A stretch of DNA of 64,000 nucleotides from Spirosoma oryzicola (GTDB taxonomy: Bacteria > Bacteroidota > Bacteroidia > Cytophagales > Spirosomataceae): positions 291,501 through 355,500 of the forward strand of contig NZ_CP089538.1 in the NCBI RefSeq assembly GCF_021233055.1, written 5' to 3'. Under the pieces are notes generated by a model. That model was given only the letters and a program-made list of their open reading frames with translations, was not told the DNA's origin and made no database searches. Of the stretch, positions 12,093 to 14,867 are shown one piece after another. The first letter of the stretch is position 1; each line of letters starts with the position of its first letter. The translations under genes were made by a program, and so were the position numbers.

Positions 12093-12608
12093 ATGGGCAG
12101 GAAAGTATTAGTCTTAAATCAAGATTACAGTGCACTCAGCATCTGCTCCGTTCCAAAAGCATTTTTGCTGGTTTATTTAGACAAAGCCGAACTCATCGCC
12201 GAATCTGAGCAATTTATGCTACGAACCGTTTCGGCCGAGTTCCCGATGCCGTCGGTTATCCGGTTACATCGGTACGTTAGTCTGCCCTACAAAGGCGTTA
12301 TGCTTACTAGGCAGAATATTTTTAAGCGCGACGGCCACAATTGCCAATACTGCGGAACGACCGAAGACCTGACACTCGACCACGTTCTGCCCAAATCACG
12401 CGGTGGAAAAACAAGCTGGGACAATCTGGCTACCGCCTGCAAACGGTGTAACTCGCGAAAAGGCGATTATACCCCCGAAGAAGCAAACATGAAGCTTCGT
12501 CAAAAACCGTTCAAGCCCACTTTTTTAGTTTTCCTACGCGAATTTTCCGGGTCTCTTGAACAAAGCTGGATGCCCTTTTTGAGCAAAAAAGGAAAGGCTT
12601 TTCAGTAA
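12093..12608 (+). CDS. HNH endonuclease family protein
   Basis: A 171-residue protein starting at the ATG at 12093 (MGRKVLVLNQDYSAL); a GTG 48 bases upstream would add a poorly conserved extension. The C-terminal half carries a zinc-binding HNH domain: CQYCGTTEDLTLDHVLPKSR followed by NLATACKRCNSRKG, with two CxxC pairs and the DH/N catalytic pattern. The N-terminal half (SVPKAFLLVYLDKAELI) is shared by a chromosomal HNH family common in Bacteroidetes. These are not linked here to a mobile element or a restriction system, so a housekeeping role in DNA or RNA metabolism is more likely than defence. Its exact substrate is unknown. A very strong terminator follows. Confidence 0.9.
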   Translation: MGRKVLVLNQDYSALSICSVPKAFLLVYLDKAELIAESEQFMLRTVSAEFPMPSVIRLHRYVSLPYKGVMLTRQNIFKRDGHNCQYCGTTEDLTLDHVLPKSRGGKTSWDNLATACKRCNSRKGDYTPEEANMKLRQKPFKPTFLVFLREFSGSLEQSWMPFLSKKGKAFQ

Positions 12609-12622
12609 GATAACGATATACG

Positions 12623-12700
12623 AAGAAGAAGGAAACGGCCCGCCCTAAGTGTTCCGCGAAATGCGAACCTCTTGGGCGGGCCGTTTCCTTCTTCTTTTTT
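12623..12700 (+). terminator. Very long-stem terminator between the HNH gene and rpsA
   Basis: A perfect inverted repeat of about 23 bp: the left arm at 12623-12645 ends in GGCCCGCCC and the right arm at 12674-12696 begins GGGCGGGCC; a T-run continues to 12700. The 28-base loop can form a smaller stem of its own (GTT-CGC with GCG-AAC). It ends the smpB/HNH unit and insulates rpsA. Confidence 0.9.
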
Positions 12701-12764: not shown

Positions 12765-12772
12765 TATCTTTG
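12765..12772 (+). promoter_or_regulatory. rpsA promoter, -7 element
   Basis: TATCTTTG followed by C is an exact TAnnTTTG match. A T-rich CTTTTT at 12744-12749 is near the -33 position. Transcription from here would start near 12778 and give an rpsA leader of about 90 bases that contains the pseudoknot at 12813-12854. Confidence 0.7.
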
Positions 12773-12812
12773 CAGTCCTTTTTTAAAGGTACCATTTTAT
12801 AAAACCAAAAGT

Positions 12813-12854
12813 CAGTCCGCCGTTGACCCACGGACTGATGTACCGAGTGGGTCA
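12813..12854 (+). promoter_or_regulatory. Candidate regulatory pseudoknot in the rpsA leader
   Basis: Two interlocked perfect 7-bp helices can form an H-type pseudoknot. Helix 1 pairs CAGTCCG (12813-12819) with CGGACTG (12831-12837). Helix 2 pairs TGACCCA (12824-12830) with TGGGTCA (12848-12854). Loop 1 is 4 bases, the helices abut with no spacer, and the last loop is 10 bases. The 3' strand of helix 2 runs directly into AGGA (12854-12857), a ribosome-binding-like site 11 bases before the rpsA ATG. Geometry and position fit autogenous control of S1 translation, which is known for rpsA in enterobacteria with a different structure. The base-pairing is seen; the function is inference. Confidence 0.6.
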
Positions 12855-12868
12855 GGAAAACTTTTTTT

Positions 12869-14653
12869 ATGAGCAAAACGCAGCAACGCGAACTGCCGGC
12901 ATTTGATTGGGACCGGGCAGACAACAAAGGATTCGGAAGTGGCTATTCGGATGCGGAGCGCAACCGGATGTTAGAACTGTACGACAATACCCTGTCGGAA
13001 GTTAAAGAAAAAGAAGTCGTTATGGGAACCGTCGTTGGGATCACAGACCGTGAGGTACTGCTCAACATCGGCTTCAAGTCGGACGGATTGGTTCCAGCTT
13101 CCGAATTCCGGGATATGCCGGACCTGAAGATGGGTGATGAAATTGAAGTTTACGTAGAAAATCAGGAAGACCCGAACGGCCAGCTGGTATTATCGCGTAA
13201 AAAAGCGAAAGTGATTACCGCATGGCAGAAAATCCAGAAGGCTCTGGACGAAGACCTCGTTATCGATGGCTTCGTGAAGCGCCGGACAAAGGGTGGTCTG
13301 ATCGTTGATATTTTCAGTATTGAAGCTTTCTTGCCAGGTTCGCAGATCGACGTGAAGCCGATTCGTGACTTCGACATCTTTGTCGGCAAGAAAATGGAGG
13401 TTAAAGTCGTGAAGATCAACTATGCAAACGATAACGTTGTCGTTTCGCACAAAGTACTGATCGAGAAAGACCTCGAAGCACAACGCGCTCAAATCCTGAA
13501 CAACCTCGAAAAAGGTCAGGTTCTGGAAGGCGTGATCAAAAACATGACCAACTTCGGTGTGTTCATCGATCTTGGTGGTGTCGATGGTCTGTTGCACATC
13601 ACGGATATCTCGTGGGGCCGCATCAGTCATCCATCCGAAGTACTGCACCTCGACCAGAAGGTCAACGTGGTTGTTCTGGATTTCGACGAGGACAAAAAGC
13701 GTATCTCGCTGGGCATGAAGCAACTTCAGGCTCATCCTTGGGATGCTCTGGAAGAAAACATCGAAGTAGGATCGAAAGTAAAAGGCAAGATCGTAAACGT
13801 AGCCGACTACGGTGCGTTCCTCGAAATCATGCCGGGTGTAGAAGGTCTGATCCACGTTTCAGAAATGTCGTGGTCGCAGCACCTGCGTAACCCACAGGAG
13901 TTCCTGAAAGTTGGTGACGAAGTAGAAGCTGTTGTGCTGACACTCGACCGCGCTGACCGCAAAATGTCGCTGGGTATCAAGCAACTGACCGAAGATCCTT
14001 GGACTCGTCCAGAACTTCGTACGAAGTATGCAATTGGCACCAAGCACAAAGGCGTGGTTCGTAACCTGACCAACTTCGGCTTGTTCCTCGAACTGGAAGA
14101 AGGCATTGATGGTCTGGTACACGTATCGGATCTGTCGTGGACGAAGAAAGTGAAACATCCTTCTGACTTCATCAAGGTTGGTGAAGAACTTGAAGTGATT
14201 GTTCTTGAACTGGACATCGAAAACCGTCGTCTGGCTCTGGGTCACAAGCAACTCGAAGAGAACCCATGGGATACGTTCGAAACCGTATTCGCCGTTGGTA
14301 CGATTCACCGGTGTACGATTATCAGCAAGAACGATAAGATGGCAACGCTCGAACTGCCTTACGGCATCGAAGGCTTCTCTTCATTGAAAAATCTTGCTAA
14401 AGAAGACGGTACATTTGCTGAAGTAGGCGAAACGCTTGATTTCAAAGTAACCGAATTCTCGAAAGACGAAAAGCGGATCATGCTGTCGCACACGAAATCG
14501 TGGCAGGAGAAGAATGAGCCAGTGAAAGAGCAAAAGCCTAAAGCTGCTGCTGCTAAACCAGCTTCTACTTCGAACCAGTCTGACCGTGGTGCAACCTTAG
14601 GAGACCTCGACGCGCTGGCGGCTCTGAAAGAGCAGCTAGAAGGTCGTAACTAG
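12869..14653 (+). CDS. rpsA: 30S ribosomal protein S1
   Basis: A 594-residue protein with six consecutive S1 (OB-fold) RNA-binding domains, from about residue 50 to 560. Clear repeats are KGQVLEGVIKNMTNFGVFID, VKGKIVNVADYGAFLEI and HKGVVRNLTNFGLFLELEEG, each followed by a VDGLLHITDISW- or IDGLVHVSDLSW-type strand and a KRISLGMKQL- or RRLALGHKQL-type ending. The tail is Lys/Ala/Ser-rich. S1 helps the 30S subunit bind mRNA and matters most where Shine-Dalgarno signals are weak, as in this phylum. The ATG at 12869 is preceded by AGGA at a suitable distance. The leader holds a promoter and a pseudoknot candidate, and a terminator follows at 14677. Confidence 0.98.
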   Translation: MSKTQQRELPAFDWDRADNKGFGSGYSDAERNRMLELYDNTLSEVKEKEVVMGTVVGITDREVLLNIGFKSDGLVPASEFRDMPDLKMGDEIEVYVENQEDPNGQLVLSRKKAKVITAWQKIQKALDEDLVIDGFVKRRTKGGLIVDIFSIEAFLPGSQIDVKPIRDFDIFVGKKMEVKVVKINYANDNVVVSHKVLIEKDLEAQRAQILNNLEKGQVLEGVIKNMTNFGVFIDLGGVDGLLHITDISWGRISHPSEVLHLDQKVNVVVLDFDEDKKRISLGMKQLQAHPWDALEENIEVGSKVKGKIVNVADYGAFLEIMPGVEGLIHVSEMSWSQHLRNPQEFLKVGDEVEAVVLTLDRADRKMSLGIKQLTEDPWTRPELRTKYAIGTKHKGVVRNLTNFGLFLELEEGIDGLVHVSDLSWTKKVKHPSDFIKVGEELEVIVLELDIENRRLALGHKQLEENPWDTFETVFAVGTIHRCTIISKNDKMATLELPYGIEGFSSLKNLAKEDGTFAEVGETLDFKVTEFSKDEKRIMLSHTKSWQEKNEPVKEQKPKAAAAKPASTSNQSDRGATLGDLDALAALKEQLEGRN

Positions 14654-14792: not shown

Positions 14793-14863
14793 GGTTCCGT
14801 GGCCGAGTGGCTAGGCAGAGGTCTGCAAAACCTCGTACAGCGGTTCGAATCCGCTCGGAACCT
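14793..14863 (+). tRNA. tRNA-Cys (GCA anticodon)
   Basis: A complete cloverleaf of 71 bases. The acceptor stem pairs GGTTCCG with CGGAACC, followed by T as discriminator base, which is usual for tRNA-Cys. The D arm is GCC/GGC. The anticodon arm is GAGGT-CTGCAAA-ACCTC, with GCA in the loop. The T arm is AGCGG-TTCGAAT-CCGCT. CCA is not encoded directly after the discriminator. The gene stands alone between rpsA and the histidine kinase, with its own promoter element and terminator. Confidence 0.96.
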
Positions 14864-14867
14864 CACC

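Follow-up and report, generated by a model that had tools for sequence, protein, structure and literature searches.

A conserved H-type pseudoknot leader before rpsA in Spirosoma and its order, a candidate operator for ribosomal protein S1

Ribosomal protein S1 from E. coli is described as an autogenous repressor, which competes with 30S-bound S1 at an initiation region without a canonical SD sequence (PMC10931766). In SELEX, S1 binds an H-type pseudoknot with nanomolar affinity, and it also binds the pseudoknots in tmRNA, the preQ1 riboswitch and rpsO (PMC7708055). When bound to the 30S subunit, S1 melts the rpsO pseudoknot (PMC3858243), and the SELEX ligands of S1 carry ACA in their loops (PMC3879156).

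Bacteroidia ribosomes are reported not to recognize SD sequences, and addition of S1 in F. johnsoniae gives twice the yield on one mRNA without SD (PMC9976891). A further study gives 1% SD for Spirosoma aureum and names Bacteroidota classes as the main members of an SD-scarce group with an intact anti-SD (PMC10783764). The control of S1 in Bacteroidota has no description in the literature that we searched. Here, we report a cis-acting RNA leader of rpsA in a window of 64,000 nucleotides from Spirosoma oryzicola, the window being the whole stretch of DNA that was analysed. The leader consists of an A-rich box followed by an H-type pseudoknot, whose second helix stops some 10 nt short of the start codon.

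The open reading frame behind the leader encodes a full-length S1 (NF004953, E 5.8e-274; PF00575 in six stretches). Upstream of the leader lies a TAnnTTTG box, which we take to be the Bacteroidetes promoter box; as a raw count without a shuffle null, it recurs 160 to 45 nt before the ATG in 77 of 79 leaders. From this box the mRNA of rpsA is inferred to start near 12780, and the knot would therefore belong to a leader that is rpsA's own and about 90 nt long. Further upstream, an HNH endonuclease-domain gene (PF14279/PF01844) occupies positions 12093-12608 of the window. Between this gene and rpsA, a nearly perfect and very long inverted repeat with a T run at its end (12622-12697) folds at -56.1 kcal/mol (z -11) and is probably a terminator isolating rpsA; the terminator scan listed nothing at this position, probably because its loop limit is 8. 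A tRNA-Cys gene follows just 3' of rpsA (14793-14864), and a tRNA gene was also found past the end of rpsA in 11 of 20 relatives' loci scanned. The elements of the leader are collected in Table 1.

Table 1. Position of rpsA and of its leader elements in the window.
Feature	Position	Strand	Remark or basis
Promoter -7-like box TATCTTTG (TAnnTTTG)	12765..12772	+	Motif match
A-rich single-stranded 5' box TAAAACCAAAA	12800..12810	+	Just 5' of P1
P1 5' strand CAGTCCG	12813..12819	+	Extendable outward to 12811; read directly; covariation
Loop 1 CCGT, 4 nt	12820..12823	+	Read directly
P2 5' strand TGACCCA	12824..12830	+	Read directly; covariation
P1 3' strand CGGACTG	12831..12837	+	Extendable to 12839; read directly; covariation
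Last loop (loop 3) ATGTACCGAG, 10 nt	12838..12847	+	Read directly
P2 3' strand TGGGTCA	12848..12854	+	14 nt before ATG
AGGA	12854-12857	+	11 nt upstream of ATG 12869
rpsA, 30S ribosomal protein S1, 594 aa, six S1-domain stretches	12869..14653	+	NF004953, PF00575

With its two helices interlocked in crossing order, the rpsA leader of the window is predicted to form an H-type pseudoknot. The sequence-only reading had described two perfect 7-bp helices with a 4-base loop, no spacer (0 nt between P1 and P2) and a 10-base last loop, and all of these coordinates were confirmed. P1 could be extended outward by the pairs U12812-A12838 and G12811-U12839, and the border between P1 and P2 is shiftable by one base; our own pseudoknot scorer, which adds a small loop-length term to the stacking sum of both helices, favoured a version with 8 + 9 bp. 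By this score the 75-nt leader of the window reaches -32.3 at best, compared with a mean of -8.6 for dinucleotide shuffles (sd 4.8, minimum -22.0). None of 400 such shuffles matches it, which bears out the earlier claim that the interlocked pairs are unlikely to have arisen by chance. Nested folding is unremarkable for the 46-nt element (z -0.98) and for the 91-nt leader (z -1.38), because the nested folding programme cannot draw knots.

Relatives were taken from the best 80 rpsA loci of a longer list, which extends from Spirosoma to Algoriphagus, Pontibacter and Roseivirga; 78 of them were used, L029 and L065 having too little upstream DNA. Among these best 80 loci the closest S1 proteins belong to three Spirosoma records (92-95% identity), and two MAGs labelled Spirosoma fluviale have an S1 identity of 74%. 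The leader sequence is poorly conserved, with a mean column identity of 37% in alignment A1, a plain MAFFT alignment of the window leader and the 78 others that was made without structure. A knot score of -20 or better is found in 60 of the 79 leaders (window included) versus 4 of 541 control segments, each 75 nt long and taken from these loci; where several in-frame ATGs were available the one with the best knot was taken, a choice that favours the knot slightly and was given to the shuffles of the order sample described below, not to the 541 controls. Among the 74 leaders scoring -15 or lower there are 57 distinct P1 sequences and 45 distinct P2 sequences. Their median dimensions are 7 bp for P1, 3 nt for loop 1 (L1), 6 bp for P2, 2 nt for the spacer and 9 nt for loop 3 (L3). 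Loops need a certain length to cross the grooves of a pseudoknot, and loops 1 and 3 are long enough for this. The lengths of P1 and L3 are correlated with r -0.41, but the two are mechanically dependent quantities, and their relation was dropped as a geometric check because it carries no information. P2 ends at a median distance of 10 nt from the AUG (range 5-15 in the 74 leaders), and GTA stands within or at the start of the last loop in 45 of the 74.

Comparison with shuffled sequences gave a similar picture within the order. Ninety leaders were fed to the knot scorer; four had no knot under its limits, and 68 of the 86 scored were reached by none of 60 shuffles each. An even sample of the order comprised 59 genomes, of which 56 have rpsA; with G300, G304 and G310 omitted, 53 leaders were scored. 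Of these, 39 were reached by at most 4 of 100 shuffles, 30 of them by none, and the remaining 14 were not beyond chance. By eye, two of these 14 (L285 and L300) carry a knot with a 4-nt spacer, which is outside the limits of the scorer, and in a third (L297) the inner helix has seemingly turned into a nested hairpin; the other 11 were reached by 8 to 100 of 100 shuffles. The sequence-only reading had pointed to the loss of one helix in close relatives as evidence against the element. Both helices are kept in the closest relatives, some of which have a single P1 mismatch or a P1 bulge (L003, L072, L271/L272). As a separate observation, the last loop is about 18 and 31 nt long in L067 and L069 (the latter from Aquirufa antheringensis), with P1 and P2 kept.

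Covariation, which had been proposed as the check on the two helices, is present in both. Every pair of columns in A1 was scanned for stems with three or more pairs that vary and are mostly paired; the result was P1 and P2 and no other stem. In A2 and A3, which are smaller, further short stems appeared as well, and on A5 at a lower threshold there were five stems, of which P1 and P2 were the longest. Paired cells in A1 amount to 74.0% versus 60.0% after shuffling, cells changed on both sides to 206 versus 82.9, and the covariation score to 0.443 versus 0.223 (0 of 500 shuffles in each case); slides by 1-3 columns score 0.066-0.203. The number of pairs with any two-sided change in A1 shows no excess (14 versus 13.6 shuffled). 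RNAalifold on A1 drew P1 only, with six pairs that all have both-side changes, because this program cannot draw knots.

A stricter, self-written null was phylogeny-aware, in that substitutions were re-placed along the tree. Under this null, two P1 pairs in A1 have E < 0.025, and of 1653 pairs the four that rank highest all belong to P1 or P2. Alignment A5 was fitted to P1 only and drew on 92 sources: the window, 74 named loci (all 78 except L069, L075, L076 and L078) and, from the 25 order loci L272-L296, a further 17. Of these sources 81 matched the model at E <= 1, so that the rows of A5 are the well-scoring ones. Five P1 pairs in A5 reach E <= 0.01. No single P2 pair is significant under the phylogeny-aware null, the best having E 1.5 in A1 and 0.77 in A5, and two A5 pairs outside both helices (E 0.23 and 0.41) outrank the latter. 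Taken as a whole helix, P2 on A5 has 60 both-side cells versus 28.7 shuffled and a score of 0.344 versus 0.239 (0 of 500 each); the numbers of pairs and of pair types, which are two of the five measures, show no excess over shuffles. Slid controls of P2 on A5 score up to 0.251, and a slide by +1 keeps 56 both-side cells versus 60 in register; the 3' register of P2 slips in alignments that do not model it.

A register-free swap test, in which the P1 loop of each species was matched to the stretch downstream of it, taken either from the same species or from a different one, gave -11.17 for own versus -7.26 (sd 0.29) for swapped P2 partners in 81 leaders, with 0 of 10,000 permutations reaching the own value; the result was again 0 of 10,000 for 43 thinned species. 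The corresponding test for P1, with fixed windows on the 79 leaders of A1, gave -11.97 versus -6.64 (0 of 10,000). These data point to two conserved, covarying helices; that both form simultaneously does not follow from covariation. P1 and P2 might instead be alternative hairpins of a switch that never exist together, and covariation of each helix alone is compatible with such an arrangement. The best nested fold of the 46 nt in the window is in fact the P2 hairpin, extended by CGG/CCG, at -16.3 kcal/mol, but leaders such as L072 and those of Dyadobacter lack this inner extension. P1 and P2 share no base, and the median loop lengths fit an H-type knot, so that we regard the alternative hairpins as very improbable.

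The element appears to be dedicated to rpsA. R1, a covariance model of P1 plus sequence, recovers the window leader with E 0.0016 from the 7.3-Mb genome to which it belongs, and the next match there (L256, E 9.2) was rejected as chance-level and not at rpsA. Across the 59 order genomes R1 has 16 matches at E <= 0.1, one per genome and none in the other 43; all 16 lie directly before an rpsA frame (tblastn), some of them being identical or close to sequences inside the model (for example G076 and L050). The 43 genomes without a match do not count as lacking the element, because R1, with its 8 pairs, is weak; many of these genomes carry the knot by the shuffle test of the order sample. Further weak copies are possible, since only the best first-look candidates were scored (150 in the own genome and 90 per genome otherwise). 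Together these results show a conserved, covarying structure before a ribosomal protein gene and its link to rpsA, a link that fits any rpsA-specific regulator.

The sequence-only reading had proposed a compact pseudoknot acting as S1 operator and a new RNA, unless it matched a catalogued leader motif. At the window leader there is no Rfam 15 match at gathering score, and a listing to E 10 gave two chance-level matches (E 2 and 6, 11-12 bits against cut-offs of 41-45). At the leaders in 40 relatives' loci there was likewise none at gathering score, tRNAs being the sole matches in these loci. The covarying, rpsA-linked knot without an Rfam match thus upholds that proposal in part, and the ribosome binding site that went with it does not stand, as described below. 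Since some riboswitches are compact H-type knots before a start codon, another protein or a small molecule might recognize the knot. The low column identity of the leader is unlike a small-molecule pocket, no Rfam family matches at gathering score and the knot is found at rpsA, all of which make a riboswitch-like element improbable.

The AGGA that touches P2 was placed correctly by the sequence-only reading, 11 bases before the ATG, but its interpretation as a ribosome binding site is not supported. An SD-like word occurs in the last 22 nt of 19 of the 79 leaders, and AGGA, which the window itself has, was rejected as an SD sequence because it is unconserved; the report that Bacteroidia ribosomes do not recognize SD (PMC9976891) argues in the same direction. 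A U run follows the knot in the window, and could suggest that the element acts on mRNA stability or transcription, as a 5' protective structure or an attenuator, rather than on translation. A run of at least six T in the last 18 nt is present in 4 of the 79 leaders, on which ground the attenuator reading was rejected, and the distance between knot and AUG is kept narrow; an effect on stability or transcription is hardly probable at all.

The likeliest reading, somewhat more probable than not judging from the sequence comparisons and from the RNAs that S1 is described to bind, is that S1 itself is the ligand and represses its own rpsA. Free S1 in excess of 30S subunits would bind the A-rich box and the pseudoknot, so that the initiation region would stay closed and less rpsA would be translated. 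When S1 is scarce, 30S-bound S1 would melt the knot and initiation would go ahead. The competition logic would be the same as for E. coli rpsA, with another RNA and with ribosomes not reading an SD sequence. The A-rich box TAAAACCAAAA is a possible S1 contact. A loose A-rich word within 14 nt 5' of P1 occurs in 62 of 74 leaders, the word having been picked after viewing the list and the count having no null; a 9-base pattern, found in 17 of 78 leaders versus a letter-shuffle mean of 1.6, was dropped as too strict. The absence of ACA from both loops of the window, CCGT and ATGTACCGAG, counts against S1 as the ligand.

The main rival explanation is that the knot is an S1-dependent docking or standby element, which raises or times rpsA initiation without feedback repression. 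The 5' pseudoknot of tisB is needed for binding of S1 and the 30S subunit and for standby (PMC7708055), and the rpsO knot docks on the 30S platform and then unfolds (PMC3858243). The narrow spacing between the end of P2 and the AUG would suit such a role, but a stable knot over a landing site without a conserved SD is expected to hinder initiation. In addition, leaders of ribosomal protein genes are usually feedback operators. We therefore consider standby without repression unlikely, though it is the most serious of the alternatives.

Similar leaders occur in the wider phylum. From 198 phylum and 99 class genomes, some of them shared, rpsA was found in 196 and 98, and part of their leaders was examined. 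Family f16 belongs to another class; a compact knot is present in 13 of its 14 leaders, and in these knots P1 varies and P2 (UCUCUC/GAGAGG) is near-invariant. Similar knots are present in f14, f19 and f27, and f11, f20 and f22 are mostly without one. An 18-row alignment of f16, f14 and f27 has 18 both-side cells versus 7.5 shuffled and a score of 0.240 versus 0.133 (0 of 500 each); the changes lie in P1, and P2 is 95% paired without covariation. In alignment A4 the leader L181 was cut at a wrong start. Leaders of the other class in which the UCUCUC/GAGAGG knot is followed by AAGGA are L159, L168-L170 and L172-L185.

Within the window's class, outside its order, a second conserved type of rpsA leader was observed among L097-L127 and L205-L253, in which a hairpin (for example UUCUGU/ACAGAA) is directly followed by UACAA. 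This word stands 8-45 nt before the AUG in 46 of 91 ATG-bearing leaders (of 102 in all), versus 10.1 on average and 21 at most after letter shuffling. The 46 leaders come from 19 of 45 families, and 18 of these leaders from one family. The hairpin 5' of UACAA gave -9.95 for own versus -6.51 for swapped partners in 46 leaders (0 of 10,000), and 0 of 10,000 with one leader per family (19 leaders), in a test without families f4 and f5, both of which are included in the count of 46 of 91. No Rfam match at gathering score was found for UACAA-type leaders in the loci tested. We call this group Flavobacteria-like, a label that is a guess for the f-numbered families. In several of its leaders (hairpin then ATACAA) loop-to-tail pairing is convincing by eye; a second helix that would make a knot was rejected in this group, the swap test giving -4.57 for own versus -4.33 for swapped partners in 43 leaders (813 of 5000 permutations). 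Other families of the class have short leaders without visible structure, and several lineages lack such a knot. Among the class leaders inspected, L198, L203 and L204 lie at contig ends and do not start at the gene.

Provisionally, the rpsA pseudoknot leader is unreported, a statement that covers main texts: no rpsA leader of Bacteroidota was found in the open literature searched, including the main texts of PMC2864571, PMC8040213, PMC8632094 and PMC6429828. Tentatively, Bacteroidota may control S1 through an old family of rpsA leaders, with an S1-binding H-type knot in the window's order and in one further class or more, a hairpin-UACAA element in the Flavobacteria-like group, and S1 competing with 30S-bound S1. 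S1 is considered most important where initiation does without SD pairing. If the proposal holds, SD-independent initiation in Bacteroidota would lean on a protein that senses itself through its free level, and the leader would be a natural case of S1 recognizing a pseudoknot in its own mRNA, an interaction described so far, in the literature consulted, for SELEX ligands and other RNAs. The knot of the window's order would then be the natural counterpart of the SELEX knots. It would add an RNA family without an Rfam 15 match, and as a dedicated, strongly covarying leader it is a directly testable candidate operator.

Compared with known systems, the closest is the gamma-proteobacterial rpsA leader of E. 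coli, which belongs to the same gene and has a structured initiation region, with AU-rich single strands contacted by S1 and no canonical SD (PMC10931766). The leaders described here share the lack of a canonical SD as a family. They come from another phylum and are a different RNA, a compact H-type knot, and repression by S1 is shown in E. coli whereas we infer it here. The SELEX ligands of S1 (Ringquist 1995, cited in PMC7708055 and PMC3879156) are H-type knots as well, S1 being the proposed ligand here; they are artificial and carry ACA in their loops, unlike the window leader. The tisB standby pseudoknot of E. coli is likewise an S1- and 30S-binding knot in a 5' UTR (PMC7708055), but it is located close to the 5' end of its mRNA, which encodes a toxin, at a long distance upstream of the RBS, and is activating. 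Finally, the E. coli rpsO operator also places a pseudoknot at the ribosome binding site of a ribosomal protein gene (PMC3858243); its ligand is S15, whereas the knot of the window lies upstream of the AUG of a gene that encodes S1.
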